IMG/VR virus record: IMGVR_UViG_3300008266_000100
Location: 1 to 45,796 of that record
Source of the DNA: a virus
Length of the DNA stretch: 45,796 nt
Reading direction: 5' to 3' (one strand)
Shown here: piece after piece, positions 15,293-29,962 of the stretch
Numbering within the stretch: position 1 is the first letter of the stretch
How the letters are laid out: each line of letters opens with the position of its first letter
Program-made: the position numbers and the translations under genes
Notes under the pieces: generated by a model
What the model saw: only the letters and a program-made list of their open reading frames with translations
What the model was told of the DNA's origin: nothing
Databases searched by the model: none

Positions 15293-15877
15293 ATGAGCGA
15301 GATTAGAGCAACGGAGTATTTCGCTCTCGTGCCTGAGTTTGTGATCTACGGGGACATCTCAGCCAACGCTGTCAGGCTGTTTGCAGTCCTGCATCGCTAT
15401 GCCAACAGCCAACTGAGGGCATGGCCCTCGAGGAAAACGCTCGCGGAGGCAATGCGGGTCTCGACTGCGACAGTCGATCGGGCCAAGGACGAACTGGTGG
15501 CACTCGGGGCCCTGACTGTCACCTCGAGGACGAGCGATCTCGGCGATCCGACATCGAATCTCTACACGCTGCTGATGGCCCCCTCAGGGGCATCCTCTGC
15601 CTCCCCTGCGTCATCACAGGTGATGAAGGGTCTCCTCACAGGTGGGGGGACGGGTCTCCTCACAGGTGCTGTTCTAAAGAGAGACAGTAAGAACGAGAGA
15701 CAATCAGGGATGTCATCACTCGAGAGAGTTCACGGCGACAAGGCAGGGCAGGTCGCGGGCCTCATCCGGCTCGGCAGACCGCAGGAGGCTGATGCCTACA
15801 TTGCGGATCAGGAGCCTGCCATCAGGGAGTGGCTGCAGGCAGTCGCCGAGCAGATGCGAGAGCAGGGACAGCCCTAA
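15293..15877 (+). CDS. Winged-helix DNA-binding protein, replication-initiator-like
   Basis: The 194-residue protein starts at ATG after AGGAGG; an upstream in-frame ATG at 15257 has no ribosome site. The N-terminal 100 residues are a winged helix of the phage RepA/DnaD-like type (YFALVPEFVIYGDISANAVR, WPSRKTLAEAMRVSTATVDR, ELVALGALTVTSR, TSNLYTLL). A Ser-rich linker and helical tail follow. With no polymerase or helicase in the genome, this could recruit host replication proteins; a regulator is the alternative. Confidence 0.75.
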   Translation: MSEIRATEYFALVPEFVIYGDISANAVRLFAVLHRYANSQLRAWPSRKTLAEAMRVSTATVDRAKDELVALGALTVTSRTSDLGDPTSNLYTLLMAPSGASSASPASSQVMKGLLTGGGTGLLTGAVLKRDSKNERQSGMSSLERVHGDKAGQVAGLIRLGRPQEADAYIADQEPAIREWLQAVAEQMREQGQP

Positions 15878-16260
15878 TGAGGCGCACTCCGCTCAAGCGT
15901 CGCACGCCCCTCAGCCCAGGAGCCCCTCTGCGCAGGCAGACGAGCCTCAGCAGGGGCACGAGTCTGAGGCGCAGGGCTCGAGGAGTTGCTCGCGATCTCT
16001 ACGAGCAGGTGCTCGCCCGCGACGGAGGATGCATCGCCCGAGGCCTCGTGCCTCAGGTCTCCTGCATGGGCAGGATTGATCCTCATCATCGGCTGATGCG
16101 CTCCCAGGGAGGAAAGGACTCCCTCGACAATCTCATCTCTGTCTGCAGGGCGCATCACGACTGGATTCACGCTCATCCGGCGCGATCGTATGATCTCGAT
16201 CTCCTGCGCCATCCCGACCGCTCAACACAACGATCCGAGGAGGACTCATGCGGAAACTAA
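15877..16260 (+). CDS. HNH endonuclease
   Basis: The ATG overlaps the upstream TAA. A very basic N-terminus (MRRTPLKRRTPLS ... LRRRARG) precedes an HNH fold: DGGCIARG, IDPHHRLMRSQGGKDSLDN, LISVCRAHHDWIHAHP. The conserved HH, N and H are present, while the zinc cysteines are limited to one or two. It may nick DNA during recombination or packaging, or act as a free-standing homing-type nuclease. It is not next to the terminase. Confidence 0.8.
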   Translation: MRRTPLKRRTPLSPGAPLRRQTSLSRGTSLRRRARGVARDLYEQVLARDGGCIARGLVPQVSCMGRIDPHHRLMRSQGGKDSLDNLISVCRAHHDWIHAHPARSYDLDLLRHPDRSTQRSEEDSCGN

Positions 16261-17130: not shown

Positions 17131-17192
17131 CTGCCCTGTGGGGCCTCACGATCGTCGCAGTCGCGATCCTGATCGGATGGGCAGAGGCATGA
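17127..17192 (+). CDS. 21-residue single-span membrane microprotein
   Basis: The frame ATG 17127 to TGA 17192 overlaps the stop of the gene before and the start of the gene after by ATGA. It reads MTALWGLTIVAVAIL then IGWAEA, one transmembrane helix. The double coupling and codon use suggest a real tiny gene. Function is unknown. Confidence 0.5.
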   Translation: MTALWGLTIVAVAILIGWAEA

Positions 17193-17839
17193 CATCCCCC
17201 ATGCTCATCTTCGATCTGTTTGCAGGCACAGGCTCCTCGACGAGGGCGTTCGCTGATGCAGGCCATCAGGTCATCTCGTTCGAGTTGGATCCTGCGTTTT
17301 CTGCGACCGAGAGCGTTGATGTCACGACTCTGCGAGCAGATGACCTGCTCGCCCGCTACGGCAGGCCTGACTTCATCTGGGCATCGCCTCCATGTACATC
17401 GTTCTCTGTCGCCTCGATCGGCAGGCATTGGAGGCTCGAGGATGGAGTCCCTGTCCCGAGGACAGATGCAGCAGTCATCGGGCAGATCGTTGTGGGCGCA
17501 ACTGTCGCCCTGATCGAGGCTCTCGCTCCCCGCTTCGGATGGCTGATGGAGAACCCGCGAGGCATGCTCAGGAAACTCCCAGTCGTCGCAGGCCTGCCGA
17601 GGAGCACAGTCACCTACTGCCAGTACGGAGACTCCAGGCAGAAGCCGACTGACCTGTGGGGAGATGTCCCCGGATGGGAGCCCCGGCCTGTCTGCGATCG
17701 CGGAGCCCCATGCCATGAGGCTGCGCCGAGAGGATCGCGCACAGGCACGCAGGGCCTAGCATCAGCCCGCACTAAGGCAATGGTGCCATACGGCCTCGGG
17801 ATGGACATCCTGCAGGCCATCGAGGAGAGGAGAGGCTGA
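17189..17839 (+). CDS. Short cytosine-C5 DNA methyltransferase-like protein
   Basis: The 216-residue protein has motif I (FDLFAGTGSSTRAF, residues 8-21), the catalytic PPCTSFS loop (Cys 69), MENPRGMLRKLP in place of the usual ENV, and a conserved CQYGDSRQKPTDLWG block. It lacks a classical QRR motif and a separate target-recognition domain, and is about half the normal length. This compact form is widespread in phages and little characterised. It would methylate cytosine in phage DNA, possibly as the substrate for further modification. Confidence 0.75.
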   Translation: MTSPMLIFDLFAGTGSSTRAFADAGHQVISFELDPAFSATESVDVTTLRADDLLARYGRPDFIWASPPCTSFSVASIGRHWRLEDGVPVPRTDAAVIGQIVVGATVALIEALAPRFGWLMENPRGMLRKLPVVAGLPRSTVTYCQYGDSRQKPTDLWGDVPGWEPRPVCDRGAPCHEAAPRGSRTGTQGLASARTKAMVPYGLGMDILQAIEERRG

Positions 17840-18186
17840 TGAGGAGACTGCTCACGCAGGGCGAGATCGAGGAGATGATCCTCGCCATCTCAGCGCAGAT
17901 CGAGGAGGAGACATACGCATACGCATCGCTCTCCGACGAGAGTGCATCAGCAGAGGCTAACTACAAACTCGCAGCAGCCCGACAGATGCTCGCCATCGCA
18001 GCATCGGATCGGAAGATGACTGCCCCTGAGAAGCAGGCGACAGTCGATGTCGCATGCTCCGAGGTTTTCCGGGCATGGCGCATCGCAGAGGCGAGGAGAG
18101 CCTCATGCAAGGAGGCTCTGAACTCCCTGCGAGCGAGGCTCGACGCTCAGAGATCGCTCGCAGCCAATGTAAGGGCGCAGACCTGA
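17839..18186 (+). CDS. Helical conserved phage protein, 115 aa
   Basis: The ATG overlaps the methyltransferase stop. The protein is almost entirely alpha-helical with heptad character (AYASLSDESASAEANYKLAA ... CKEALNSLRARLDAQRSLAA). Similar helical proteins accompany replication or recombination genes in actinophages. No activity is known to me. Confidence 0.65.
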   Translation: MRRLLTQGEIEEMILAISAQIEEETYAYASLSDESASAEANYKLAAARQMLAIAASDRKMTAPEKQATVDVACSEVFRAWRIAEARRASCKEALNSLRARLDAQRSLAANVRAQT

Positions 18187-18200
18187 TGGGCGCATCAGCC

Positions 18201-18214
18201 GACTATGCTCGGCG
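18201..18214 (+). promoter_or_regulatory. CCGA-CTATGC-TCGG palindrome over a TATGCT box
   Basis: CCGACTATGCTCGG is an inverted repeat with a -10-like TATGCT (18204-18209) in its centre, 9 nt before ATG 18219. It belongs to the same motif family as the sites at 10442, 22491, 27228 and 32291. Confidence 0.35.
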
Positions 18215-18218
18215 ACCG

Positions 18219-18458
18219 ATGAGGAAGAACACAGCCCCTGCCATGACCGACCTAGATCGCCTCGAGCAGACGATCATCGAGGGACAGCGTGCCTACGAGG
18301 AGCGCAACGCCCTGATCGTCGCACTCGTCGAGGCAGGAGCCTCGCAGGCCTCGGTCGCTCGCCATCTGAACTCTCTGCGGGCATCATGGGGGGCCCCGAG
18401 CCTCACGCCTGATGCGATCGCAGCAACAATCAAGCGAGTCAGGCAGAGCCGTGTCTGA
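18219..18458 (+). CDS. Small HTH protein
   Basis: The start is either ATG 18219 or ATG 18243; the second leaves GAGGAAG as a distant ribosome site. The protein has a helix-turn-helix-like segment (LVEAGASQASVARHLNSLRA, then TPDAIAATIKRVRQSRV). It overlaps the following methyltransferase GTG and may regulate it, like the small controller proteins of restriction-modification loci; that is inference. Confidence 0.6.
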   Translation: MRKNTAPAMTDLDRLEQTIIEGQRAYEERNALIVALVEAGASQASVARHLNSLRASWGAPSLTPDAIAATIKRVRQSRV

Positions 18459-19950
18459 TCAGCCTCTGACATTCGGCTCCCTGTTCGCAGGAGTCGGGGG
18501 CATCGATCTCGGGCTCGAGAGAACAGGTCGATGGGAGTGCCGATTCCAGGTCGAGTGGGATCCTGCATGTCAGCAGACGCTCGCCTACTGGTGGCCCGAG
18601 GTGCCGAGATGGAGCGATGTCGCGGAGACATCAGGCAGAGACCTGCCCCCGGTCGATCTCATCACCTTCGGCTCTCCATGTCAGGATCTGTCAAACGCAG
18701 GAAAGCGGGCAGGGCTCGAGGGCAGTCGATCATCGATGTTCTTCGAGGCAGTCAGAATCATCAAGGAGATGAGAGATGTCACAAATGGAACTTTTCCCCG
18801 ATTTGCCCTCTGGGAGAATGTCGCGGGTGCCCTCACTTCTAATCGAGGGCGGGACTTCGGCGTCGTCCTCGACTCGTTGGCAGACATCGGGGCTGTGGCT
18901 CTCGAGTGGCATCTCTTGGACTCGCAGTTCTTCGGAGTCCCCCAGAGGAGACGGCGAGTGTTCGTCCTCGCTTGTTTCGATCCTGCAGTCGCCGACCGAG
19001 GTGGACGCGAGATACTCCCTGTCGGCGAGGGCCGCAGCAGGCATCCTCAGAAGGGCAGACAATCGGGGGCGGGCTCTGCCGGAGAGGCTGAGGATCGCTC
19101 TCGAGATCATGTCCCGTTCGTCCTCGACCACGCCTGCCTCTCCCAAGGGCTGAACGCCAAGTACGACTTTGTTGCTGATCAGCGGGATGTCATGCCATGT
19201 CTGATCGCAGGCGGGCCTCATGGAGTCGGTCAGCCTGTCGTCAGCCTCATCGATGGCACGCGGGTAAACGATGTCAGGGTGTATGGCGAGCCTGTGCAGA
19301 CTCTGCAGGAGCGCATGGGCACAGGAGGAAACACGGTGCCGATGGTAACGATTGACTCAGGCGAGCATCAGATGGAGATGTCGTGGTGGGATGGCTCAGA
19401 CATCGTGCCGAGCATCGGGACTACATCGTCGCAGCAGAGGATGCCTGACAAGGGCCAGTTGTTCGCAGTCGTCGGCTTCTCTCACACTCAGGGCCTCGAC
19501 CCGCAGGCATCTGAGACCGCATGGCCCACGTTGCAATCAGAGGGAGGAGGGCATGCGGTGATGGTCGATGCAGAGGCTGAGATCCGTCCGTTCGTGTTTC
19601 AGCCAGGGACGATGATCCGGCAGGGGATGCCTGGGAGCGAGGAGACTGCGCCAACGCTCCGCGCACAGGTCAAGGGAGGCGACAACGCCCCGCATGTGCT
19701 CACAGAGGATGACAGCACAAACATCTCTGCTCCTCTCATGCTGTCGCCATCAGTCATCGTCAGGAGACTCACGCCGATCGAGTGCGAGCGTCTGCAGGGA
19801 TGGCCCGACAATCACACTCTGCCTCGCGCTGATGGCAAGACAAACCCTGACAGCACTAGATACAAGATGGTCGGCAACGGCGTGACATCCAATGTCGCAG
19901 AGTTCATCGGCACGCATCTCGCCATCGCCTGCGATGAGGCCCAGACATGA
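18451..19950 (+). CDS. Cytosine-C5 DNA methyltransferase
   Basis: The 499-residue protein starts at GTG within the upstream stop. Motifs are complete: I (FGSLFAGVGGIDLGLE), IV (FGSPCQDLSNAGKR, catalytic Cys 77), VI (LWENVAGAL), VIII (VPQRRRRVF), and X (MVGNGVTSNVAEF). The roughly 260 residues between VIII and the C-terminal motifs are long and contain several loosely repeated segments (PVQTLQERMGTGGNTVP, AWPTLQSEGGGHAV, APTLRAQVKGGDNAP, MPCLIAGGPHGVGQP), as in multispecific phage enzymes. No partner restriction enzyme is visible, so a role in evading host restriction or preparing DNA for hypermodification is likely. Confidence 0.9.
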   Translation: MSDQPLTFGSLFAGVGGIDLGLERTGRWECRFQVEWDPACQQTLAYWWPEVPRWSDVAETSGRDLPPVDLITFGSPCQDLSNAGKRAGLEGSRSSMFFEAVRIIKEMRDVTNGTFPRFALWENVAGALTSNRGRDFGVVLDSLADIGAVALEWHLLDSQFFGVPQRRRRVFVLACFDPAVADRGGREILPVGEGRSRHPQKGRQSGAGSAGEAEDRSRDHVPFVLDHACLSQGLNAKYDFVADQRDVMPCLIAGGPHGVGQPVVSLIDGTRVNDVRVYGEPVQTLQERMGTGGNTVPMVTIDSGEHQMEMSWWDGSDIVPSIGTTSSQQRMPDKGQLFAVVGFSHTQGLDPQASETAWPTLQSEGGGHAVMVDAEAEIRPFVFQPGTMIRQGMPGSEETAPTLRAQVKGGDNAPHVLTEDDSTNISAPLMLSPSVIVRRLTPIECERLQGWPDNHTLPRADGKTNPDSTRYKMVGNGVTSNVAEFIGTHLAIACDEAQT

Positions 19951-20108
19951 GCCCATGCGAGTGCATCAACTGCGACGATCCAGGCGCAGGAGGCGACTGC
20001 CTCGCCGGATGCTGCGCCTCCTGCCTCTGCTCTCTCGGCTCTGACGAGCCCTGGGGAACGCTCTGCGACGACTGCCAGTTCCTCCTCGAGGAGGAGCGTA
20101 GGCTCTGA
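19947..20108 (+). CDS. Cys-rich microprotein (probable zinc ribbon), 53 aa
   Basis: ATG 19947 overlaps the methyltransferase TGA. Ten of 53 residues are cysteine (CECINCDD, CLAGCCASCLC, LCDDC), consistent with two zinc sites, followed by an acidic helix. Codon use is like its neighbours. Function unknown. Confidence 0.6.
   Translation: MSPCECINCDDPGAGGDCLAGCCASCLCSLGSDEPWGTLCDDCQFLLEEERRL
20099..20104 (+). promoter_or_regulatory. TAGGCT -10 box, leaderless start
   Basis: TAGGCT plus 6 nt leads to ATG 20111 with no ribosome site. It overlaps the last codons of the Cys-rich microprotein. Confidence 0.45.
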
Positions 20109-20110
20109 GC

Positions 20111-20707
20111 ATGATCGTCGATCCCGAGACCATCGCAGAGGTTCTCCTGCAGGGAGCAGTCGCCATCCATGATCGCGACGGGGAAGTCGTCCCGACATCG
20201 TTCGCAATCGGGCACGCCCGCACCATCTTCGCGCAGCCCTTTGATGACTCGGGCCTGAGGATGTCTAGAGAGGCGAGGATCGCGATGGATGCCCTGCTCA
20301 TCTCTGCGACCGGGGCTGTCTGCCTCGGCAGGATTGACGAGTCGTACATCCAGGAGCGAGGGCTCAATGATCCTGCGCCGAGCAGGGACGAACTCATCGA
20401 GCAGGCTGATGTCGATCCGACTATCGGCACAGCCCTGACCGTTCAGGCGATGAGCACTCGCTCGCGGAGAGCGACTGTCGCCCTCGCTCGGCATCATCTC
20501 AGCCCTGAGGGGGAGTCAGTCTGGGATCAGGGGCTCTACACGATGGTCGAGGGGGACGCGATCGTCGCAGCAGTCGAGGCCTGCGCGATGGCTGCAGGCA
20601 TCACCAATCCGATCTCTGATGAGCAACTGCGGGAGGAACTGCTCAACATCGGGTGGTCGATGATCGACTCAGACGACATCGATGGCGACGAGGAGGCATC
20701 CCTCTGA
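20111..20707 (+). CDS. Hypothetical protein, 198 aa
   Basis: Mixed alpha/beta, acidic C-terminus. No recognisable motif; segments such as TSFAIGHARTIFAQPFDDSG and MDALLISATGAVCLG are hydrophobic enough for a globular core. The start is supported by the TAGGCT box. It overlaps the next gene. Confidence 0.6.
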   Translation: MIVDPETIAEVLLQGAVAIHDRDGEVVPTSFAIGHARTIFAQPFDDSGLRMSREARIAMDALLISATGAVCLGRIDESYIQERGLNDPAPSRDELIEQADVDPTIGTALTVQAMSTRSRRATVALARHHLSPEGESVWDQGLYTMVEGDAIVAAVEACAMAAGITNPISDEQLREELLNIGWSMIDSDDIDGDEEASL

Positions 20708-20946
20708 TGTGGTGGATAATCATGGGGGCTCTCCTCATCTCGTTCCTGATTGCCCTGCTCATCGCAGACGACAGCGATCATCGATGCGCCTGGTGCGGGG
20801 ATGGCATCCCCGAGGGGGAGGATGCCCGATGGCGCAGGCCCTATCGCCTCCACACTCTGGAGACGACGCTGTACGGCATGCATCTCTACTGCTCGCGAGG
20901 ATGCGCTCTCTCGCACGCTGAGATGCTCGAGGGATCTGATGTCTGA
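20707..20946 (+). CDS. Membrane-anchored zinc-ribbon protein, 79 aa
   Basis: An N-terminal transmembrane helix (MWWIIMGALLISFLIALLIA) is followed by CAWCGDG and CSRGCALSH, a four-cysteine treble-clef or ribbon. The domain would face the cytoplasm or outside depending on insertion. No function is known. Confidence 0.6.
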   Translation: MWWIIMGALLISFLIALLIADDSDHRCAWCGDGIPEGEDARWRRPYRLHTLETTLYGMHLYCSRGCALSHAEMLEGSDV

Positions 20947-21271
20947 TCAGGATGCTGTCATCAGAGACCTGACTCAGAGCATCGAGGCCCTGCAGAGGGA
21001 GCGTGATGCTGCGAGGAGCGAGTTGATCCATTGGCGAGGCCTTGCCCGGGCACTAGGCATCGCGATGAGCGACTCGTATGAGGGCCCTGCTGCGCTCGAG
21101 CGCGAGGAAGGCGACAGATACCGCAGAGCCGTATGGGTTCTAGCATCTTGGGTTTACGCCTCATCAGTAGATCGCGCTCCTGAGGGCACGACTCCTGATG
21201 TATGGGTTCGATGGGCTCTGGAGCAGACAGAGAGCCCTGTGCCCCCTCCCTGCCCCTCGGTGATAGCCTGA
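20939..21271 (+). CDS. Coiled-coil hypothetical protein, 110 aa
   Basis: The ATG overlaps the previous gene. Residues about 5-40 form a coiled coil (VIRDLTQSIEALQRERDAAR), followed by a helical domain with several Trp residues. Function unknown. Confidence 0.55.
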   Translation: MSDQDAVIRDLTQSIEALQRERDAARSELIHWRGLARALGIAMSDSYEGPAALEREEGDRYRRAVWVLASWVYASSVDRAPEGTTPDVWVRWALEQTESPVPPPCPSVIA

Positions 21272-21368
21272 CCTGATCCCCTGACCGACAGATCTGATCA
21301 GCCACGCCCCGATGGAGGGCACGAGACATCTCGGGCTGTGGGGATCGCCGACAAAGGAAAGCAGACTG

Positions 21369-22493
21369 TTGAGACGCTCTCTCATCGCCTTCAGCATCTC
21401 CATGATCGTCGCTGCGACTGCAGCGCACGCTCTGAGCCCGCGAGAGGAGGCGATGACAGATGACGCGACTCTGCTGAACCTCCCGGCTGATCAGCCTGTG
21501 TTCCCCTCATGGGAGCCCTCGGCGACAGAGGCTGAGTTCCTAGCCTACGCATCCCTGCCTGAGGCCCCGCCGATGGACTACTGGATCAGGCTCGCTCAAT
21601 GCGAGACGAGTCAGAACTGGCAGAACGAGGGCAGGCATGGGGGAGGCCTTGGCTTCTTCACAGTTGGCAGGTTTCCCTCGTCGAGCATGGGGGGATGGGA
21701 GCGCATGGGAGGCGAGCAGTTTGCCGACCATCCAAAGGATGCGAGCCCGACAGAGCAGATCATCATCGCGACTCGCACCGCGCTCCTCGGATGGGGCCCC
21801 ATCCCCCTGCAGAGAGATCCTGCGATGGCGAGGAGCAAGGGCATCCCGATCGACTACGCCTGGGAGACTGATGAGCATGGATACTGGACATGGGGCTGCG
21901 CCAAACGGGTCGTGGGCGATCCCTGCGGGTTCCTTTGGGATGGATCGCGCATCGCAGTCCTCCCTCATGTCAGGCCTGCCTACTGTCGATACATGAAGGG
22001 CAGAGACTACGCATCCCTGCCGACCAACGGCAGATACGCCCACAATCGGGACACTCGAGAGGCGATCGCGAGAGCGAGAGCAGAGGGGGCGCAGTCTGTC
22101 GCCCTGCCATCAGCCGTCGAGTGGCTGTATCCGACCCGCCTGACGACTGCCCCGGTGCCTGAGGATGCTCGATGCCCTGCGCTCTGGCAGCAGGCCCGAT
22201 CAGTCGGCTTCTCTGATGATGAGATCATCATCCTCGAGGGCATCGCATGGAGCAGATCGCGATGCACAGAGAACGCCAAACAGAGGCGACCTGATGGCGA
22301 CATCCTGAGGGGATACACGCTCATCGGGCCCGAGTGGACGCAGTATCTCCGTGACGCAGCCATCCTGTACTCTCCGCAGGATCTGCTCGGATGGGAGACG
22401 CATCTCGAGGCTGTCCGGTCGATCTATCTGACAGAGGTGAGGCTCAGAGGATGGGGATGGGGCCCCTGGGGCGTGAGCCCACCTGCCGACTAG
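21369..22493 (+). CDS. Secreted Rpf-like muralytic protein
   Basis: I choose TTG 21369, because AAAGGAAA lies 8 nt upstream and this start gives an ideal Sec signal peptide (two Arg, a hydrophobic core, cleavage after AHA). ATG 21312 lacks a ribosome site. The mature protein has an Rpf/lysozyme-like fold: WIRLAQCETSQNW (catalytic Glu after Cys), GGGLGFFTVGRF, then GGEQFADHPKDASPTEQIII. A second region of about 200 residues has Cys pairs (CPALWQQARSVGFSDDE ... RCTENAKQRRPDG), suggesting another extracellular helical domain. It could loosen the wall for lysis alongside the VanY enzyme or remodel host wall during infection. Confidence 0.75.
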   Translation: MRRSLIAFSISMIVAATAAHALSPREEAMTDDATLLNLPADQPVFPSWEPSATEAEFLAYASLPEAPPMDYWIRLAQCETSQNWQNEGRHGGGLGFFTVGRFPSSSMGGWERMGGEQFADHPKDASPTEQIIIATRTALLGWGPIPLQRDPAMARSKGIPIDYAWETDEHGYWTWGCAKRVVGDPCGFLWDGSRIAVLPHVRPAYCRYMKGRDYASLPTNGRYAHNRDTREAIARARAEGAQSVALPSAVEWLYPTRLTTAPVPEDARCPALWQQARSVGFSDDEIIILEGIAWSRSRCTENAKQRRPDGDILRGYTLIGPEWTQYLRDAAILYSPQDLLGWETHLEAVRSIYLTEVRLRGWGWGPWGVSPPAD

Positions 22494-22496
22494 AGT
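22487..22496 (+). promoter_or_regulatory. CCGACTAGAGT promoter element
   Basis: TAGAGT (22491-22496) preceded by CCGAC forms most of the palindromic motif. A GAGGAGGAG ribosome site lies before ATG 22515, so the transcript would be leadered. Confidence 0.4.
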
Positions 22497-22514
22497 CCCG
22501 GCTGAGGAGGAGAC

Positions 22515-22748
22515 ATGATCCACGGACGACAGTCTGCGTATGTCGCAGGATGCAGATGCGAGACATGCCGAGAGGCGAATCGCGAGGCGCAGGCCCGCTA
22601 CAGGAGCACAGCCAAAGGAAGGGAGCAGGCGAGGCGCAACGCCCGAGTGCAGCGCAGAGCGCAGGCTCTCGCCCTCGCTCATCTCAGAGCCACCGACCGG
22701 AGGGCATACTTCGCGGTCTACGATCAGGCTAAGGAGGCATGCAGATGA
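22515..22748 (+). CDS. Small zinc-binding basic protein (HGxxxxYxxGCRCxxC family)
   Basis: The 77-residue protein opens HGRQSAYVAGCRCETCREAN, a CxCxxC module known in many actinophage small proteins, followed by a long Arg/Ala-rich helix. The same module begins the 32942 gene. Likely a nucleic-acid-binding protein; role unknown. Confidence 0.65.
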   Translation: MIHGRQSAYVAGCRCETCREANREAQARYRSTAKGREQARRNARVQRRAQALALAHLRATDRRAYFAVYDQAKEACR

Positions 22749-22951
22749 CAGGCGAGTGGAGGCCCCATGAGCATCCGCACTACGAGAGCGCACTCCTGAT
22801 CGAGCATCTCCAGGAGGAGGTAGCGAGGCTCAGCAGGGACATCACCGCCCTGCAGACGCTCATCGCCGTCTACCTCGATCCCGACTCGGAGGAGGAGCAG
22901 GAGCAGGCTCTCTCATCGCTCGATCTGATCGTCCCGCTGCGCCCCCGGTGA
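22745..22951 (+). CDS. Small coiled-coil protein, 68 aa
   Basis: The ATG at 22745 overlaps the upstream TGA. Residues 17-45 form a coiled coil (LLIEHLQEEVARLSRDITAL). Function unknown. Confidence 0.55.
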   Translation: MTGEWRPHEHPHYESALLIEHLQEEVARLSRDITALQTLIAVYLDPDSEEEQEQALSSLDLIVPLRPR

Positions 22952-23112
22952 TGCTCGTCCTCTGGCAGATCGCGAGGTTCCTCGATCCCGAGGGCAGGCA
23001 GATCAGAGTTCATCTGTGGCAGTCGGCAGAGGACGCTCGTCCTCGCATCGAGGCAGAGATCATGATCGACGGAGCCTGGGAGCCTCTCGAGGAGCAGGCA
23101 TCGCGCAAGTAG
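22951..23112 (+). CDS. Small hypothetical protein, 53 aa
   Basis: ATG 22951 shares its A with the upstream TGA. The protein reads as a compact strand-helix-strand (VLWQIARFLDPEGRQIRVHL ... IEAEIMIDGAWEPLEE). Codon use is typical of this genome. No family known. Confidence 0.5.
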   Translation: MLVLWQIARFLDPEGRQIRVHLWQSAEDARPRIEAEIMIDGAWEPLEEQASRK

Positions 23113-23115
23113 CAT
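23110..23115 (+). promoter_or_regulatory. TAGCAT -10 box, leaderless GTG start
   Basis: TAGCAT plus CTCCTC (6 nt) leads to GTG 23122. The same AGTAGCATCTCCTCG string recurs at 36727, after the MuF gene. Confidence 0.4.
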
Positions 23116-23121
23116 CTCCTC

Positions 23122-23433
23122 GTGACTCTCGAGAGGGACTTCGCGAAACAGGTCGAGATGATCCTGGACTTCAGAGGATGGCTGTGGAAGCACGACGAGC
23201 CTGCGAGGAGGCCCTCCGGCGGATGGGCGACAGCGTTCAGAGGCACGCGGGGATTCCCTGACTACATCGCAGTCAGAGGAGATCGAGTCGTGCTCGCAGA
23301 GATCAAGTCGGAGCGAGGCAGGGCCTCAGAGGATCAGCAGACATGGCTGACAGCCCTCGAGCAGTCAGGCCGAGTCGAGGTGTATCTCTGGAGGCCCTCT
23401 GATCTGCAGGCGATCGCAGAGATCCTCAGATGA
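23122..23433 (+). CDS. VRR-NUC nuclease
   Basis: The 103-residue protein matches the small phage VRR-NUC fold of the PD-(D/E)XK class: N-terminal catalytic Glu region (LERDFAKQVEMILDFRGW), FRGTRGFPDYIAVRGDRVVL (catalytic Asp), AEIKSERGRASEDQQTWL (E-x-K), and VEVYLWRPSD. Such enzymes may act as Holliday-junction resolvases in phage recombination or packaging. The GTG start follows from the box upstream. Confidence 0.85.
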   Translation: MTLERDFAKQVEMILDFRGWLWKHDEPARRPSGGWATAFRGTRGFPDYIAVRGDRVVLAEIKSERGRASEDQQTWLTALEQSGRVEVYLWRPSDLQAIAEILR

Positions 23434-23627
23434 GCAGATCCCTGCCGTATCTGCTGTCAGATGAGTGCCCTGACTGCGGTGCTCCCCTCACAGCCATCGT
23501 CCATCAGGTCGTAGGCACGCCTCGCGCGACAGGAGGCCTCATGCGAGTCCCGATCTCGACAGGCCTCGCCTGGATGCAGGCCTGCGCCCATGTCTGGGAT
23601 CCTGATGAGGGCGCAGAGCAGGCGTAG
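23430..23627 (+). CDS. Small zinc-ribbon protein, 65 aa
   Basis: The ATG overlaps the nuclease stop. It has CPDCGAPL near the N-terminus and CAHVW near the C-terminus, a probable C2-CH zinc ribbon. It may assist the coupled nuclease; no direct evidence. Confidence 0.6.
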   Translation: MSRSLPYLLSDECPDCGAPLTAIVHQVVGTPRATGGLMRVPISTGLAWMQACAHVWDPDEGAEQA

Positions 23628-23630
23628 ACT
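23625..23630 (+). promoter_or_regulatory. TAGACT -10 box with leader
   Basis: TAGACT overlaps the upstream stop. AGGAGG (23645-23650) and ATG 23656 follow. It allows separate expression of the modification genes. Confidence 0.45.
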
Positions 23631-23655
23631 GCCTGCTGACATCCAGGAGGACTCC

Positions 23656-25206
23656 ATGATCGCAGACGATCTCAAACCGCTCGCCCGCCCCATCTCTAGC
23701 CTGCACTCCCTCGATGGCAATCCGCGGAGAGGCGATGTCCGGGCTGTGATGCGCTCCTACGAGCAGTTCGGGCAGAGGAAGCCCATCGTCGCCCTGAGGG
23801 ATGGCACCGTCATCGCAGGCAATCATCAACTTGAGGCTGCTCGCCTCCTCGGATGGGCAGAGATCGCTGTCGTGTATGTCGAGGATGACGACCGGACAGC
23901 CAAGGCCTACGCCCTGGCAGACAATCGCACAGGTCAGTTGGGATCATACGACTACGACGCTCTTCGCGACCTGCTGCAGGAGGTATCCATCGATCCTGCT
24001 CTCTACGAGGCGACCGGGTATCAGCCTGTCGCGATCGGGGACATCTCCTCCCTCGTCCCTCCTGCCCCTCAGCCCTCGTCCGATCCCATCGTCGAGACCC
24101 GGGAGATCGCAGTCGAGCAGAAGCCGACGCTCGCAGACCGCTTCATCTTCCCGCCGTTCTCGGTGCTTGACGCACGCTCAGGCCCCTGGCGAGAGAGGAA
24201 GCGCAGGTGGCTGATGACAGGCATCCAGAGTGAGCAGGGGCGTGCAGACAACCTCGCAGGCGTGAGCGAGTTCGTCCTCGACACTTTCTATGCAGGCAAG
24301 AAGCCTCAGCCCCTCACCATCCCCTCCCTGTCGGGGCGCATCCCGACCTACTACGAGCAGAAGAATCAGGCAGAGGCGCAGACAGGCAGGAAACTGTCCA
24401 ACGAGGAGTTTGAGCGCGATCATCTCGTCATCCCTGAGGGCGCAGCCACGCTCTCTCGGGGAGGGACATCCATCTTTGATCCTGTCCTGTGCGAACTCGT
24501 CTACAGGTGGTTCTCCCCCCTGGGAGGCACCGTCCTCGACCCGTTCGCCGGGGGCTCGGTCAGGGGAGTCGTCGCAGGCCTGACAGGCAGGTCGTATGTC
24601 GGCATCGATCTCAGGCCCGAGCAGGTCGAGAGCAACCGTCAGCAGTGGCAGGCCATCAGGTCGGCTGAGAGGGCAGAGCAGGTCAGCGTCGAGTGGCTTG
24701 CAGGAGACTCCCGCGAGATCCTGCCGACAGTCGCTCATCCCTCCATCGATCTCGTGTTCTCCTGCCCGCCCTACGCTGATCTCGAGGTTTACTCAGAGCA
24801 TCCTGCTGACATCTCCAACATGGAGTGGGAGGACTTCCTCGAGGCCTACCGCGAGATCATCCGGGCCTCGGTCGCCCATCTCGCATACGATCGCTTCGCC
24901 TGCTTCGTCGTCGGCGAGGTTCGTGACCGCAAAGGCAACTACAGGAACCTCATCGGGGAGACAGTCAGGGCGTTCACAGACGCAGGATGTCACTACTACA
25001 ACGAGGCGATCCTCGTCACGCCTGCAGGCTCCCTGCCTGTCAGGGCAGGCAGGATGTTCTCCTCAGGGCGCAAGGTCGGGAAAACGCATCAGAATGTTCT
25101 CGTGTTCGTCAAGGGCGATGGCAAGCGTGCATCGCAGGCCTGCGGAGAGGTGGAGGTTTTCCTGCCTGAGGAGGCTACGGCAGAGGGCGACGACCTGCAG
25201 GCGTAA
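23656..25206 (+). CDS. ParB-like / DNA methyltransferase fusion
   Basis: The 516-residue protein has two domains. Residues about 10-115 are ParB/sulfiredoxin-like (ISSLHSLDGNPRRGD, VIAGNHQLEAARLLGW, KAYALADNRTGQLGSYD). After a linker and a block RFIFPPFSVLDAR ... RKRRWL comes an amino-methyltransferase with DPFAGGSVRGVVA (SAM loop, residues 295 on) and SCPPYADLE (motif IV at 369-377, CPPY in place of D/SPPY). It would methylate adenine N6 or cytosine N4. ParB-type domains in phage methylases may guide DNA binding or act as a CTP/nucleotide-using module. It is the first gene of the putative modification cassette. Confidence 0.85.
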   Translation: MIADDLKPLARPISSLHSLDGNPRRGDVRAVMRSYEQFGQRKPIVALRDGTVIAGNHQLEAARLLGWAEIAVVYVEDDDRTAKAYALADNRTGQLGSYDYDALRDLLQEVSIDPALYEATGYQPVAIGDISSLVPPAPQPSSDPIVETREIAVEQKPTLADRFIFPPFSVLDARSGPWRERKRRWLMTGIQSEQGRADNLAGVSEFVLDTFYAGKKPQPLTIPSLSGRIPTYYEQKNQAEAQTGRKLSNEEFERDHLVIPEGAATLSRGGTSIFDPVLCELVYRWFSPLGGTVLDPFAGGSVRGVVAGLTGRSYVGIDLRPEQVESNRQQWQAIRSAERAEQVSVEWLAGDSREILPTVAHPSIDLVFSCPPYADLEVYSEHPADISNMEWEDFLEAYREIIRASVAHLAYDRFACFVVGEVRDRKGNYRNLIGETVRAFTDAGCHYYNEAILVTPAGSLPVRAGRMFSSGRKVGKTHQNVLVFVKGDGKRASQACGEVEVFLPEEATAEGDDLQA

Positions 25207-25372
25207 TCTCCATGATGCGCCATGCGACTCCGCGCTCGCCTGCAGGAGCAGAGGCGACAGCCTCCTCCTCGCTCTCATGCGCCCTCTGGATGTCCTTCCA
25301 TGCGAGGCTGCGAGCCTCCCATGTCTGCACCTTGTAGTACGCTGTGAACCTGACCGAGGACGGTGATCTCAT
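25175..25372 (-). CDS. Small minus-strand protein, about 51-65 aa
   Basis: On the reverse strand a frame ends with TAG (25175-25177) and reads VQTWEARSLAWKDIQRAHES then GVAWRIMEITPAGRRPLP, which resembles small phage proteins with a YRVQVWD...W-x-D-I-Q pattern. Codon choice matches + strand genes. The start could be GTG 25330 (51 aa) or ATG 25372 (65 aa, keeps the likely N-terminal strand TAYYK). It converges on the methyltransferase with a 32-nt overlap. It is the only minus-strand gene I find convincing. Confidence 0.55.
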   Translation of the reverse strand: MRSPSSVRFTAYYKVQTWEARSLAWKDIQRAHESEEEAVASAPAGERGVAWRIMEITPAGRRPLP

Positions 25373-26519
25373 GGAGGAGACAATAGGGGAGCCGACAGCA
25401 GTCGGCAAGTCATGGCAGAGGGGCATCCCCCTCGAGCGTCTCCGGGCAGTTTCCCGCAGATTCCAGGCCCATGATGGCCCCCGATGCCTCGGGGCGTTCT
25501 CCAAGATCAAGGAGAACATCGTCGCGGGATGGATCGCAGAGGAGCGTCTCCTCGAGACTCCCGACGCAGCAGTCGCGTTCAGATGGCTCAGGAGCAGGCA
25601 GACAGTCTCAGACTTCCGGGGCGAGCCCGCCCTCGAGATGCCCCCCGGGGCTCTCTCCATCGAGCGAGTCGCAGGCACAGCCCTCGGCATTTCCTCCGCG
25701 ATCGAGAGCCTCGCTCAGGGAGCCCCTGTCATCTGGCGATCCTGGGCAGATCATCCTGAGGAGATCGAGGCATCAGCCCTGCTCGGCCTGGAGAGGAGCG
25801 GGACGCTCATCAGGGCCTCCTCAGAGGTGCTCGCCCTCAGGAGCCGGGGCGCATCGACTGTCTCCCTGCCCCTGCCCCGCAGGGATTTCGTCGGGATCGC
25901 TCCGCTCGCGATCCCTGTTGATGAGGGGCATCTCGCCCTCGCAGCCGGATGGCCCTCCATCGTCGAGAGCCTCTGGATTGATCACTACTCCTCCTACAAC
26001 AAGCGTCAGTCATGGCACGCGGTCGCCCTGCGCTCATTCGGAGGCGACCCGGCGTTCATCGAGAAGCCTGCTGAGATGAGCAGGCGGTATCAGCAGGAGC
26101 ATCCTGAGAGGCTGTCCTGGGAGATCGCAGACACTCCCCTCCTCGACTCTCTCCCCGGAGCGAGGGCCCTCCTCGGCTCCCTCGGATGCGGAATCGAGCG
26201 AGCCCGCCTGATGCGCCTCACAACCGGAGGAGAACTGTCCCGGCATGCCGACATCACGGATCGCTCTGCAGGGACTCGCCTGGGCGCGATCGCCCGCCTG
26301 CATCTCCCCCTGATCACGCACGAGAGCGTCCGGTTCACCACCTGGAGCATCGATGATCAGCCGACGACTCTCCACATGGCCCCCGGATCATGGTGGTATC
26401 TCGATGTCAGGAAGCCCCACATGGCTGAGAATCCCTCAGGATTCGACCGCATCCATCTCGTCGTGGACTGCATCGTCGATCAGGCCCTCGCGGAGAGGAT
26501 CGAGCAGGCCCATCCATGA
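25344..26519 (+). CDS. 2-oxoglutarate/Fe(II) oxygenase (Asp/Asn hydroxylase-like) with extra N-terminal domain
   Basis: Residues about 285-385 fit the aspartyl/asparaginyl beta-hydroxylase fold: SRHADITDRS gives H301 and D303, KPHMAEN gives H359, and R369 lies ten residues on for 2-oxoglutarate. The N-terminal 200 residues (CLGAFSKIKENIVAGWIAEE, RSWADHPEEIEASALLGLER, IRASSEVLALRSRGA) are suggestive of a GNAT-like acyltransferase, as in Mom-type DNA modifiers, but this is tentative. The start is GTG 25344 or ATG 25371; GAGGACGG precedes the latter. It lies between a DNA methyltransferase and a PLP enzyme, so action on DNA bases or an attached group is inferred. Confidence 0.7.
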   Translation: MNLTEDGDLMEETIGEPTAVGKSWQRGIPLERLRAVSRRFQAHDGPRCLGAFSKIKENIVAGWIAEERLLETPDAAVAFRWLRSRQTVSDFRGEPALEMPPGALSIERVAGTALGISSAIESLAQGAPVIWRSWADHPEEIEASALLGLERSGTLIRASSEVLALRSRGASTVSLPLPRRDFVGIAPLAIPVDEGHLALAAGWPSIVESLWIDHYSSYNKRQSWHAVALRSFGGDPAFIEKPAEMSRRYQQEHPERLSWEIADTPLLDSLPGARALLGSLGCGIERARLMRLTTGGELSRHADITDRSAGTRLGAIARLHLPLITHESVRFTTWSIDDQPTTLHMAPGSWWYLDVRKPHMAENPSGFDRIHLVVDCIVDQALAERIEQAHP

Positions 26520-27220
26520 GATACCCAGTCACGATCACCGAGCATGAGGGCATCCGCGTCGTCAGAGACGACCTGATCCCCGGAGGATCGAAGCAGAGGA
26601 TTCTCGCCCCCCTGATGGAGATGCTCGCAGAGCAGGGATACCGCAGGTTCGTGTTCGGAGGCCCTGCAGAGGGATACGCCCAGTTGGCCCTCGCGTTCTC
26701 AGCCCAGGAGACAGGCCTCGGCGCGACCTACTTCGTCGCAGAGCGCAAGATGCTGCATCCCAACACGATCCGGGCGCAGGAGGCAGGCTGCGAGATCAGA
26801 CAGGTCAGGCATGGCAGGCTCAATGTCGTGCAGGCCCGAGCCCGGGCGTTCTGCCAGGAAACAGGCTCATACTTCTTCCCCCTGGGGTTCTCGACTCCCG
26901 AGTTCGAGAGGATGCTGACAGCCGAGATCGCGGAGGCTCTCGCCCCCATCGATGTCCAGGAGATCTGGTGCGTCGCAGGCTCAGGGCTCCTCTCCCGATG
27001 CCTGCAGCAGGCCAAGCCCTCCGCGACTGTGAACGCAGTCAGGATCGGATTCGAGCCGAGCGTCGGCCTCGCCCGCCTCCATCTCGCCCCGGAGACATTC
27101 TCAGAGCAGGCCGAGATTCTCCCTCCGTTTCCCTCCTCAGCCAACTACGACGCTAAGGCATGGCGGTTCATCCGCGAGCAGGCATCCCCCGGGGCCCTGT
27201 TCTGGAATGTCGGTGCCTAG
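26516..27220 (+). CDS. Short PLP-dependent fold-type-II enzyme
   Basis: The 234-residue protein has its ATG overlapping the oxygenase stop. IPGGSKQRILAPLMEML resembles the catalytic-lysine segment (K26) of the D-cysteine desulfhydrase / ACC deaminase / threonine synthase group. Further blocks are FVFGGPAEGYAQLALAF, FVAERKMLHPNTIRAQEAG, WCVAGSGLLSRCLQQA and PPFPSSANYDAKAWRF. At 234 residues it is 70-100 shorter than metabolic relatives, so it may be a specialised phage family. It could eliminate or replace at the beta/gamma carbon of an amino acid, or act on an aminoacyl-modified base; substrate unknown. Confidence 0.75.
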   Translation: MRYPVTITEHEGIRVVRDDLIPGGSKQRILAPLMEMLAEQGYRRFVFGGPAEGYAQLALAFSAQETGLGATYFVAERKMLHPNTIRAQEAGCEIRQVRHGRLNVVQARARAFCQETGSYFFPLGFSTPEFERMLTAEIAEALAPIDVQEIWCVAGSGLLSRCLQQAKPSATVNAVRIGFEPSVGLARLHLAPETFSEQAEILPPFPSSANYDAKAWRFIREQASPGALFWNVGA

Positions 27221-27227
27221 AGCCGAC

Positions 27228-27233
27228 TACACT
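27228..27233 (+). promoter_or_regulatory. TACACT -10 box, leaderless start of terminase
   Basis: CCGACTACACT is followed by 7 nt and then ATG 27241. It combines the leaderless box with the CCGACTA half-palindrome. Confidence 0.55.
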
Positions 27234-27240
27234 CCTGCCC

Positions 27241-27789
27241 ATGACCGCAGAGGACTCTCCTCGCCCTCGCGCCCCGATCGGGAGGCGCACGCTCCTCACG
27301 CCTGAGGTGCAGGAGGCCATTGTCACCGCAGTCGGAGTCGGGGCGTATCTCGACGACGCAGCCTCGACAGCAGGGATTGGGCCATCGACGCTCCACCTCT
27401 GGATGGCGACAGGCAGGCAGGCGAGAGAGCGATCCGACGCAGGGGAGCCCCTGACTGACCGCGAGGCCCTCTGCCTAGAGTTCATGGAGGCGGTAGAAAA
27501 GGCCCGGGCAGACGCATCCCTCAGGAACATCCACATCATCCAGAGGGCAGCGCAGGAGGGGACATGGCAGGCTGCAGCCTGGTATCTCGAGCGCACCAAC
27601 CCTCGCAAGTGGGGCAGGCACGAGACCTACGAGGTGACAGGAGCCGAGGGAGGGCCCATCCGCGTCGATGTCTCGAGCAAGGACGCTCTCCGGGCCAAGT
27701 TCGAGACTGCTCAGAGAGTCGCCCTGGAGAGGCTCGGGGCCCCGATCGAGGATGCTGAGATCATCGAGGAGAGACGAGAGGCCCTGTGA
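27241..27789 (+). CDS. terS: Terminase small subunit
   Basis: The 182-residue protein contains an HTH of terminase/transposase type (YLDDAASTAGIGPSTLHLWM), a helical middle with SLRNIHIIQRAAQEGTWQAA, and AWYLERTNPRKWGRHE followed by EVTGAEGGPI, a signature of phage small terminases. It binds packaging-start DNA and feeds the large subunit. The start is fixed by the TACACT box; an upstream in-frame ATG lies inside the PLP gene. Unusually, GP88 separates it from the large subunit. Confidence 0.85.
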   Translation: MTAEDSPRPRAPIGRRTLLTPEVQEAIVTAVGVGAYLDDAASTAGIGPSTLHLWMATGRQARERSDAGEPLTDREALCLEFMEAVEKARADASLRNIHIIQRAAQEGTWQAAAWYLERTNPRKWGRHETYEVTGAEGGPIRVDVSSKDALRAKFETAQRVALERLGAPIEDAEIIEERREAL

Positions 27790-28565
27790 CGATCCTGAGG
27801 CAGAACGCTGAACTGAGGAGGGATCGCGTCTGGAACTTCTCGATCCCGGCATGGCATGTCACGCTCCCTGATGGGAGCCGATTCATGACCTGTCCTCATG
27901 CAGGGCCCTGCGCACAGGTCTGCTACGCCCGGAACGGCACCTACCGCTTCCCTGCTGTCCTCGCGTCGCACACTCGGAACCTCCTGATGTTCCTCGACGA
28001 TCCTGAGGGATGGGAGCAGGCCCTGATCGCAGAGTTGCAGGCTCGACGGTTCCGCCCGACCGGGGAGCCTCGAGACCTGCCGATCCAGGGCGATCCCTGG
28101 ATGCAGGCATGGGCTCAGACTGGGGGCGCAGCGGTGCGCATCCATGACTCAGGCGACTTCTTCTCTGCCCCCTATCTGCAGGCATGGCTGAGGATCGCGG
28201 AGGCGACTCCTGATGTCCTGTTCTATGCCTACACGAAAGAGATCAGCCTGTTCCGGGCAGAGCCCCGAGTCGATCAGGTGCCCAACTTCCGGTATCTGTT
28301 CTCGACCGGGGGCCTGGAGGATCACCTGATCGATGAGCAGGCTGACCGCTTCGCGGATGTTTTCCCTGACGAGGAGGCGATCAAGAAGGCAGGCTTCTAC
28401 TCGCAGACAGCCTCCGATCTGCTCGCAGTCGCAGCCCCATCCCGGCTGATCGGCATCCCTGCCAACAACATCCCTGCGTTTCGCAGGAGGCTCTCAGGGC
28501 GCAGATTCTCCGACCTGACAGCAGAGCGGTCAGTCGCGATCAGGAGACGAGCAGGCTCATCGTGA
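27786..28565 (+). CDS. GP88-like cysteine-motif protein
   Basis: The 259-residue protein starts at GTG inside the terminase stop. It matches the phage GP88 family: TCPHAGPCAQVCYARNGTYR (Cys 36, 42, 46, a C-x5-C-x3-C cluster), VRIHDSGDFFSAPYLQAW, LFYAYTKEISLF, and a C-terminal SRLIGIPANN. The cysteine cluster followed by a TIM-barrel-like pattern suggests an Fe-S enzyme related in layout to radical SAM proteins, but spacing is not the classical Cx3Cx2C. Position between the terminase genes and near the modification cassette suggests DNA or nucleotide modification; this is inference. Confidence 0.75.
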   Translation: MTILRQNAELRRDRVWNFSIPAWHVTLPDGSRFMTCPHAGPCAQVCYARNGTYRFPAVLASHTRNLLMFLDDPEGWEQALIAELQARRFRPTGEPRDLPIQGDPWMQAWAQTGGAAVRIHDSGDFFSAPYLQAWLRIAEATPDVLFYAYTKEISLFRAEPRVDQVPNFRYLFSTGGLEDHLIDEQADRFADVFPDEEAIKKAGFYSQTASDLLAVAAPSRLIGIPANNIPAFRRRLSGRRFSDLTAERSVAIRRRAGSS

Positions 28566-29962
28566 CGCAGGCCCCTGATCTCAGGGCCATGTCTCCTCAG
28601 CAGGTCATCGCCCTGGGAGGCGAGTGGGAGCCCCTCCTGGACTCCCTCGATGAGCAGGAGGCTGAGAGCCTGCTCTACGACTGGCAGTTCTGGAGCCGAC
28701 CTGTGCAGCGCATCCCGGAGGAGATGGGCACGCGGTACCGCATCTGGCTGTTCCGAGCAGGGCGAGGCTCAGGCAAGACCCGGGCAGGAGCCGAGGCGAC
28801 CCGCTCCATGATCGAGACAGTCTCGAGGATCGCGCTCGTCGCTCCGACAGCCTCCGATGTCCGCGATGTCATGATCGAGGGCGAGTCCGGTCTCCTCTCT
28901 GTGTTCCCCCCGGATCAGAGGCCCGAGTATGAGCCCTCCAAGCGTCGCGTGACATTCCACAACGGGGCGAGGGCGTATGCCTACTCTGCTGAGGAGCCGG
29001 AGCGTCTGCGAGGCCCTCAGCATGGATGGGCATGGATCGACGAGCCTGCCTCGATGCCCCTCGGGCAGGCCTCGCTCGACAACCTCCTGTTCGGCCTGCG
29101 CCTCGGCGATGCCCCCTGGACGATGATTACAGGCACGCCCAAGCCTGTGAGATGGCTCCGCGATCTCGCAGCCCGCCCAGATACCATCACGACGACAGGA
29201 TCAACCTACGACAACGCCTCCAACCTCGCCCGCGGATTCATCGACGACATCCTCTCCCGGTATGAGGGCACCCGCCTCGGGAGGCAGGAACTCTACGCCG
29301 AGTTCCTCGAGGATGTCGAGGGGGCCCTCTGGACAGAGGCGATGATCGACCGCACGAGGCTCGCAGGGCTCGAGCCTGCCCATCCTCTGCGAGCGATCAA
29401 CGGATGGCAGGCAGACAACGGCATCCCTGCGACGCTCGACCGCAGGCCCTGGCGCACCATCGTCGCCGTCGATCCCCCAGGAGAGACTGCTGAGTGCGGG
29501 ATCGTCGTCGCGATGGCCCCTGTGAACGGGCAGGCAGGCATCGACCGGGCGATCGTCCTCGAGGATGCCTCCACAGCAGGCAGGCCCGAGGAGTGGGGAG
29601 CCCGCGTCGCCTCCGTCGCCCGGAAGTGGCGAGCAGAGCGCATCGTCGTCGAGTCCAATCAGGGAGGCGACATGGTAAGGGCGACCATCCATGCAGTTGA
29701 TCCGACGCTCAGGATCGACAAGATCACAGCCCGCATCTCAAAGGGAGCACGAGCAGAGCCTGTCTCTGCCATGTATGAGCGCAGGCTCGTCCATCACGCC
29801 GGATTCTTCCCGATGCTCGAGGCGCAGATGACGACCTATGTCCCGGGCGAGTCTCGCTCTCCTGATCGCATGGATGCCCTCGTGCATGCGATCAACAGCC
29901 TGCTCCCTCCCCGACCTGTGCAGCGGGCCTCTGTCGCCTCAGCAGTCTCGAGGCGCATCTGA
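28562..29962 (+). CDS. terL: Terminase large subunit
   Basis: The 466-residue protein starts at GTG overlapping the GP88 stop. The ATPase domain has Walker A (GRGSGKT, residues 67-73), Walker B (WAWIDEP, near 155), and coupling motif TGTPKP. The nuclease domain has VAVDPPGE, VESNQGGDMV, and SPDRMDALVHAI with the acidic residues of an RNase H-like fold. It powers DNA packaging and cuts the concatemer. Confidence 0.95.
   Translation: MTQAPDLRAMSPQQVIALGGEWEPLLDSLDEQEAESLLYDWQFWSRPVQRIPEEMGTRYRIWLFRAGRGSGKTRAGAEATRSMIETVSRIALVAPTASDVRDVMIEGESGLLSVFPPDQRPEYEPSKRRVTFHNGARAYAYSAEEPERLRGPQHGWAWIDEPASMPLGQASLDNLLFGLRLGDAPWTMITGTPKPVRWLRDLAARPDTITTTGSTYDNASNLARGFIDDILSRYEGTRLGRQELYAEFLEDVEGALWTEAMIDRTRLAGLEPAHPLRAINGWQADNGIPATLDRRPWRTIVAVDPPGETAECGIVVAMAPVNGQAGIDRAIVLEDASTAGRPEEWGARVASVARKWRAERIVVESNQGGDMVRATIHAVDPTLRIDKITARISKGARAEPVSAMYERRLVHHAGFFPMLEAQMTTYVPGESRSPDRMDALVHAINSLLPPRPVQRASVASAVSRRI

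Follow-up and report, generated by a model that had tools for sequence, protein, structure and literature searches.

Known hypermodifications of phage DNA appear mostly to derive from hydroxymethyl pyrimidines, from deazaguanines or, as recently found, from carboxymethylcytosine. Here we analyse IMGVR_UViG_3300008266_000100, a virus contig of 45,796 bp with a GC content of 62.7% (its whole length is referred to as the window), and in particular a cassette of three adjacent genes which encode a ParB domain fused to a CPPY-family methyltransferase-fold domain, a 2-oxoglutarate (2OG)/Fe(II) oxygenase with a predicted GNAT-fold domain (GNAT-2OG), and a minimal pyridoxal phosphate (PLP) enzyme. This cassette is widespread and probably serves to attach an amino acid derived from the methyl donor S-adenosylmethionine (SAM) to the DNA of the phage, where the amino acid would be further altered.

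Of the systems published so far, the nearest to this cassette is the CmoA-CmoX-CmoY pathway of phage S-B43, which forms 5-carboxymethylcytosine: carboxy-SAM is made by CmoA and used by CmoX, a C5-methyltransferase with an SPPC motif as its signature, and ParBc genes are common nearby (PMC12783734). In both systems, a phage SAM-dependent base enzyme would place a non-methyl group as a handle for later modification; the CPPY enzyme differs in its N6/N4-like fold (instead of that of an SPPC-bearing C5-methyltransferase) and in the group that it would transfer, the SAM backbone. A carboxy-SAM route was rejected for the window phage, since CmoA, the carboxy-SAM synthase, was not found in the record (no TIGR00740 match).

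A second parallel comes from RNA, where TYW2 transfers the 3-amino-3-carboxypropyl (acp) group from SAM and TYW5 then hydroxylates it in wybutosine, acp being likewise the group concerned in acp3U and with Tsr3 (PMC7694415). Transfer of acp from SAM to a base, followed by 2OG-dependent hydroxylation, is the step order that we propose for the cassette, although the RNA enzymes belong to unrelated families (TYW5 is a JmjC protein) and there is no PLP step. On DNA, the hypermodification of 5-hydroxymethyldeoxyuridine and 5-hydroxymethyldeoxycytidine through amino acid:DNA transferases (ADDT, aGPT-PPlase) likewise places an amino acid on a base for later tailoring, and mycobacteriophage LilMcDreamy joins an ADDT module to the same GNAT-2OG protein. 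A hydroxymethyluracil/ADDT route was rejected for the window phage on the absence of any thymidylate-synthase-type enzyme from the window (a search with a working control); ADDT and Tet_JBP gave no matches there either, in searches that are weak because they had no positive control (the control genomes were empty for ADDT). Finally, the Mom protein of phage Mu, which makes N6-carbamoylmethyladenine, is a case of a GNAT fold serving phage DNA modification; the GNAT domain of the cassette differs in its fusion to a 2OG oxygenase. Neither acp or aminopropyl groups on DNA nor the cassette itself were found described in the literature searched, which did not include the likeliest place of a prior mention (Iyer et al. 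2013, reportedly a computational survey of phage base-modification systems that may mention parts of the cassette); a computational prediction of part of it may therefore already exist.

The three genes and their co-occurrence in phages

All the enzyme genes named in an initial annotation of the window, made from the sequence alone, exist according to Pfam and PHROG profile matches. The first gene of the cassette (23656-25206, plus strand) had been described as a ParB-amino-methyltransferase fusion. The fusion itself holds: an N-terminal ParB domain (phrog_723, 2e-31) is followed by a domain matching phrog_498 (7e-111), phrog_12517 and PF01555 (1.5e-9, above the cut-off), in which a Rossmann methyltransferase domain is confirmed and to which the TTHA0409 and CcrM profiles match. 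When compared with N6-adenine/N4-cytosine DNA methyltransferases (PF01555; CcrM, MboIIA, TTHA0409), this domain shares the fold, the DPF at the start of motif I (DPFAGGSVRG, 24538-24567) and the PPY of motif IV (CPPYADLEVYS, 24763-24795), but has GGSVRG for GxGTT in motif I and a Cys at the D/N/S position of motif IV. The amino-methyltransferase pattern [DNS]PP[YFW] is thus found neither in this enzyme nor in its intact relatives, motif IV being CPPY in every relative intact enough to show it, and this part of the description calls for correction. In the named phages, CPPY proteins are deposited as ParB-like proteins or as DNA methyltransferases. A longer open reading frame starts at 23590; the start at 23656 has a Shine-Dalgarno-like AGGAGG upstream.

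The second gene (25344-26519, plus strand, with an alternative start at 25371) encodes, as annotated, a 2OG/Fe(II) oxygenase with an additional N-terminal domain. The oxygenase domain falls within the Asp/Asn beta-hydroxylase group (PF05118, 2.2e-9), L-proline cis-4-hydroxylase is its nearest solved sequence, and its metal and 2OG residues (H301 and D303 at 26244-26252, H359 and R369 within 26415-26459) form an HxD...H...R pattern which is invariant across 21 oxygenase relatives. In the AlphaFold2 model (mean confidence, pLDDT, 87), the N-terminal domain (approximately 25401-25960) has the order alpha-alpha-beta-beta-beta-beta-alpha-beta-alpha-beta-beta and is predicted to be a GNAT fold; among the PDB matches listed, nearly all are GNAT acetyltransferases, with marginal E values (5e-4 to 3e-3).

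The third gene (26516-27220, plus strand) overlaps the oxygenase gene by ATGA and, in agreement with the initial annotation, encodes a short PLP fold-type-II enzyme (phrog_7093, 1.9e-30; PALP, 3.7e-6, under the Pfam cut-off). Its Schiff-base Lys26, in a GGSK motif (26582-26593), is invariant in 21 relatives, and the phosphate loop is AGSG (26975-26986). The AlphaFold2 model (pLDDT 94) resembles the homologue of 1-aminocyclopropane-1-carboxylate (ACC) deaminase 1j0a (template modelling score, TM, 0.87) and D-cysteine desulfhydrase 4d8t (E 7e-11), which are types of enzymes acting on C3-C4 amino acids.

In order to survey co-occurrence, viral contigs were gathered separately with the PLP protein alone and with the oxygenase protein alone, and in-frame profiles were then run on them. 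The order ParB-CPPY, GNAT-2OG, PLP recurs on those contigs at identities of 27-50%, with genes that mostly overlap (the usual case) or abut. Synteny of the trio extends over dozens of divergent phages; on several contigs it lies directly before the terminase. The CPPY gene is present in 29/29 loci fetched by the oxygenase alone (about 5 kb away in two of them). A second and larger set comprised 78 oxygenase loci; although many of its contigs end inside the operon, CPPY was found in 65, PLP in 56 and both in 49. In a scan of a bacterial genome collection, no relatives of the oxygenase or of the trio were confirmed.

Domain fusions tie the PLP enzyme to the methyltransferase-fold domain. In Erythrobacter phages ZS04 and R6L, the methyltransferase domain itself houses a PLP domain, which interrupts it after motif II and before motif IV, Pseudanabaena phage Pam4 carries a more divergent PLP domain at the same place, and in three further loci (L010, L040, L081) the methyltransferase gene is in two parts, one on either side of PLP. 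Microcystis phage Mae-JY30 is a further carrier available in culture, as are these Erythrobacter phages and Pam4, the Mycobacterium phages Vincenzo and LilMcDreamy, and Croceibacter phage P2559S. In mycobacteriophage Vincenzo, the gene next to CPPY encodes a protein related to ACC deaminase. In LilMcDreamy, the same two-domain GNAT-2OG protein (gp4) follows a ParB, an oxygenase and an amino acid:DNA transferase (gp3, matched by the Pfam ADDT (aGPT-PPlase) model). The oxygenase, gp2 (L047:855-1787), was deposited as a queuine tRNA-ribosyltransferase (also phrog_6059) and reads as a Tet/JBP-like 2OG oxygenase from its PF12851 match (E 0.002). The amino-acid-installing step would thus be swapped in this phage and the downstream GNAT-2OG retained beside an amino acid:DNA transferase, which favours a base-linked amino acid as the GNAT-2OG substrate. 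For LilMcDreamy gp4 and Vincenzo gp2, a search aimed at remoter relatives returned only those phages. Based on the co-occurrence, the synteny, the insertion of PLP in the methyltransferase domain and the position of GNAT-2OG beside an amino acid:DNA transferase, three of the genes listed in the initial annotation have good support as genes for DNA hypermodification.

Two other small proteins were seen in these operons. A methyltransferase-like protein with SLPD for motif IV (L022:9123-9749, L031, L034, L195, L244 and HCTV-2 gp12, L052:5141-5782) comes after CPPY or GNAT-2OG in several phages, for the most part in those that lack PLP, and is possibly an alternative tailoring enzyme. A protein of about 200 residues, with a conserved G-M-C-x-T-T-S-L motif and no Pfam or PHROG match, lies between operon genes in L021 (7390-8010), L032 (6308-6907) and L033 (4061-4660).

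Two types of CPPY enzyme and the SAM decarboxylase

A further view on the transferred group comes from the CPPY family as a whole, for which 80 additional loci were sampled using a subfamily linked to a SAM decarboxylase (SpeD), giving a comparison of 129 non-identical intact CPPY copies. Position nine of motif I divides the family into two types with mutually exclusive partners. The Arg-type (DPFAGGSVRG, to which the window enzyme belongs) has SpeD downstream in 0/68 loci, and PLP and/or 2OG in 39/68; the Phe/Met-type (DCFAGD[TS]VFG) has SpeD in 54/58 and PLP or 2OG in 0/58. Whole-record searches agree with this exclusion: the SpeD family is found in 0/37 Arg-type records, and most Phe-type loci initially scored without SpeD do hold it in the record. 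Four loci (L145, L146, L149, L150) show a further motif-I variant, DCFSGG[AS]FGF, without the Arg, and have no SpeD, PLP or 2OG nearby.

The type change consists of Arg to Phe/Met plus a new Asp in motif I, where the Arg aligns with the second Thr of GxGTT. Of the eleven alignment columns by which the types can be told apart, nine belong to the part that binds SAM (motifs X, I, II and III); CPPYxxLExYS and a C-terminal RK..HQ motif are common to both. The types therefore differ in the SAM pocket, with the presumed base pocket kept. Two related records, L142 (IMGVR_UViG_3300025894_000157) and L143 (3300025869_000164), hold an Arg-type and a Phe-type paralogue, SpeD adjoining the Phe-type copy and the Arg-type copy having no evident ParB domain; such a pair, within one phage, acts as a built-in control of the cofactor switch.

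The CPPY genes of Croceibacter phage P2559S (gp66) and of Pseudomonas phage ZRG1 are each overlapped by the gene that follows, which is an S-adenosylmethionine decarboxylase gene, and the P2559S SpeD (gp67) has been shown experimentally to be a bona fide enzyme of this kind (PMC9992855). Almost every linked SpeD copy retains the ESHxxxHTFPE motif, and the possibility that the phage SpeD is an ornithine/arginine decarboxylase was rejected on both grounds. In ZRG1, an Nmad5-family putative nucleotide modification gene (L056:9843-10442) is located downstream of CPPY and SpeD, at a distance of about 4 kb.

Phages are reported to carry polyamine and amino-acid enzymes (PMC9992855), and the genes could in principle be metabolic and unrelated to DNA, with SpeD giving a spermidine precursor, PLP and 2OG enzymes acting on free amino acids, and their neighbourhood being a hot spot next to the terminase. 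This is extremely unlikely, given that spermidine synthase was found in 0/36 SpeD-type records, that SpeD adjoins only the Phe/Met-type methyltransferase domain, that the PLP domain can lie within that domain, and that the genes mostly overlap or abut.

More weight is due to a route through methylation, in which CPPY would be an unusual N4/N6 (or other) DNA methyltransferase, the 2OG enzyme would oxidise the methyl group or act elsewhere, and the PLP enzyme would supply or process an amino group. The fold and many of the motifs are indeed those of N6/N4 DNA methyltransferases, and methylation-then-oxidation routes exist in phages. Nevertheless, CPPY stands where [DNS]PP[YFW] is expected, the oxygenase belongs with the amino-acid hydroxylases and not with TET/AlkB, and a real SAM decarboxylase, together with an altered SAM pocket in one branch, is left unexplained. 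For this last reason, the methylation or hydroxymethylation followed by oxidation, which the initial annotation had brought forward from known phage pathways, is not favoured, and we regard a methyl route as unlikely.

Decarboxylated SAM is, to our knowledge, known only as an aminopropyl donor. Read most simply, the Phe-type would transfer aminopropyl, and the Arg-type would transfer acp, its counterpart with the carboxylate.

A proposed route and its alternatives

From the SpeD linkage and the motif-I switch, we infer the following route. The ParB-CPPY enzyme would be a DNA base alkyltransferase that moves the C4 backbone of SAM (acp) and not its methyl group, releasing methylthioadenosine and leaving the base with an alpha-amino acid. 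The GNAT-2OG protein would then hydroxylate the base-linked amino acid, as TYW5 does with the acp side chain of wybutosine, its GNAT domain binding or acylating the amine, and the PLP enzyme would form an aldimine with the same alpha-amino group, followed by elimination, deamination or a similar remodelling. The bulky product might hide the phage DNA from host nucleases. In the sister branch, the linked SpeD would make decarboxylated SAM and the Phe/Met-type enzyme would add aminopropyl, a group without the carboxylate needed by an alpha-amino-acid PLP enzyme. PF05118 hydroxylases, PLP fold-type-II enzymes and GNATs all act on amines or amino acids, and the PLP and amino-acid-hydroxylase partners would be confined to the Arg-type because only its product bears an alpha-amino acid. 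We give this reading as a whole (a DNA hypermodification cassette, with acp transfer followed by oxygenase and PLP remodelling) a probability of roughly 0.57. A broader proposal has in our view an even chance of being correct: the CPPY proteins would form a large family of phage aminocarboxypropyl/aminopropyl transferases acting on DNA, with a switch of donor (SAM or decarboxylated SAM) legible from one motif and from the neighbour gene, and with the acp form remodelled on DNA by GNAT-2OG and PLP.

Several observations weigh against this route. On the side of the partners, 29/68 Arg-type loci have neither PLP nor 2OG (these copies may install a plain group), and PLP occurs without 2OG in 15 loci, so the PLP enzyme cannot always need a hydroxylated substrate. 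The Phe/Met-type amounts almost to one clade (a tree of the C-terminal half shows 2 changes), which makes the switch approximately one event kept across divergent phages, and a Fisher's p for the partner exclusion overstates its strength accordingly. As for the enzymes themselves, the contact of the motif-I Arg with the SAM carboxylate is suggested by alignment to other methyltransferases; the PDB matches of the GNAT domain are marginal (best E 5e-4, TM approximately 0.5), and the acetyl-CoA motif (R/Q)xxGx(G/A) is not apparent in the aligned GNAT-domain family. The PLP protein (234 residues) has lost the C-terminal part and the usual PLP-contacting Asn loop (SN/GNH), whose positions read PAEGYAQ / PFCGGAP, and its reaction cannot therefore be named with confidence. 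Finally, LilMcDreamy stands alone as an example, with a Tet/JBP match that is weak (E 0.002).

The order of the steps might also be reversed, with the PLP enzyme (and perhaps the 2OG oxygenase) modifying SAM before its transfer, like SpeD in the sister branch or CmoA for CmoX. The mutual exclusion of PLP/2OG and SpeD would fit such cofactor tailoring, as would an ACC-deaminase fold, suited to C4 amino acids, and the CmoA/CmoX pathway sets a precedent by modifying SAM first (PMC12783734). Against it stand the retention of the motif-I Arg, which suggests a donor that has its carboxylate, and the LilMcDreamy GNAT-2OG adjoining an amino acid:DNA transferase, where the substrate would be base-linked; we consider it quite unlikely.

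If the acp route is correct, attachment of the SAM backbone would be a further class of DNA modification, with a primary amine (plus, in the acp form, an alpha-amino acid) as a handle, and it would explain the presence, in some phages, of a SAM decarboxylase that has no spermidine synthase beside it in the genome. It would also give functions to oxygenase and PLP families which are now unannotated or labelled only as threonine dehydratase, and provide enzymes for placing reactive amines on DNA. The route predicts exact masses and by-products, and is thus directly testable, including in the cultured phage P2559S, for which the SpeD activity is proven.

Neighbouring genes and the extent of the conserved unit

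The initial annotation had proposed a larger system (17189-28565), which included two cytosine-C5 methyltransferases and GP88; the unit that is conserved comprises only the three adjacent genes at 23656-27220. One full C5-cytosine methyltransferase is indeed present (18412-19950, plus strand; PF00145, 1.7e-53). The other gene (17189-17839, plus strand) encodes a short C5-like protein of 216 residues, which belongs to the SPPC-motif family phrog_757 (3.5e-31; SPPC at 17384) and exceeds the Pfam cut-off of PF00145 by 0.7 bit (22.7 bits); it has the signature of CmoX, yet CmoA was not found in the record. GP88 (27786-28565, plus strand; PF17338, 4e-49) does lie between the terminase genes and does have a cysteine cluster (C-x5-C-x3-C, CPHAGPCAQVCY at 27891-27929), as annotated.

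That these proteins share the pathway of the trio in the window phage is very doubtful. Physical proximity in the window speaks for it, but whole-record searches found GP88 in 1/37 and any C5-methyltransferase in 5/37 related records, relatives of the 17189-17839 gene occur in 2/76 oxygenase loci, and a sister contig (G057) has no GP88 by Pfam search. The C5-methyltransferases and GP88 were on these counts rejected as pathway members, and of the co-occurrence that the initial annotation had proposed to survey, it is that of the ParB-methyltransferase, 2OG and PLP genes which was found, in many divergent phages. A gene similar to 17189-17839 stands directly after GNAT-2OG in L219 and before it in L192.

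The cassette is followed by the genes for the terminase small subunit (27160-27789, plus strand; phrog_4102, 3.5e-33), whose likely start is further downstream, and the terminase large subunit (28562-29962; PF03237, 6.7e-24). At the level of DNA, no close relatives of the window were found among named phages. An identical 114-bp direct terminal repeat (1-114 and 45683-45796), within a collagen-like gene, suggests that the phage genome is probably closed, the alternative being that the assembly broke within the repeat. No restriction endonuclease had been noted in the window, which holds insofar as nothing there resembles a type II restriction enzyme; nucleases are present, namely an HNH nuclease (15829-16260) and, just upstream of the cassette, a VRR-NUC protein (23122-23433), the gene for which is also found in L006/L016 and L007.

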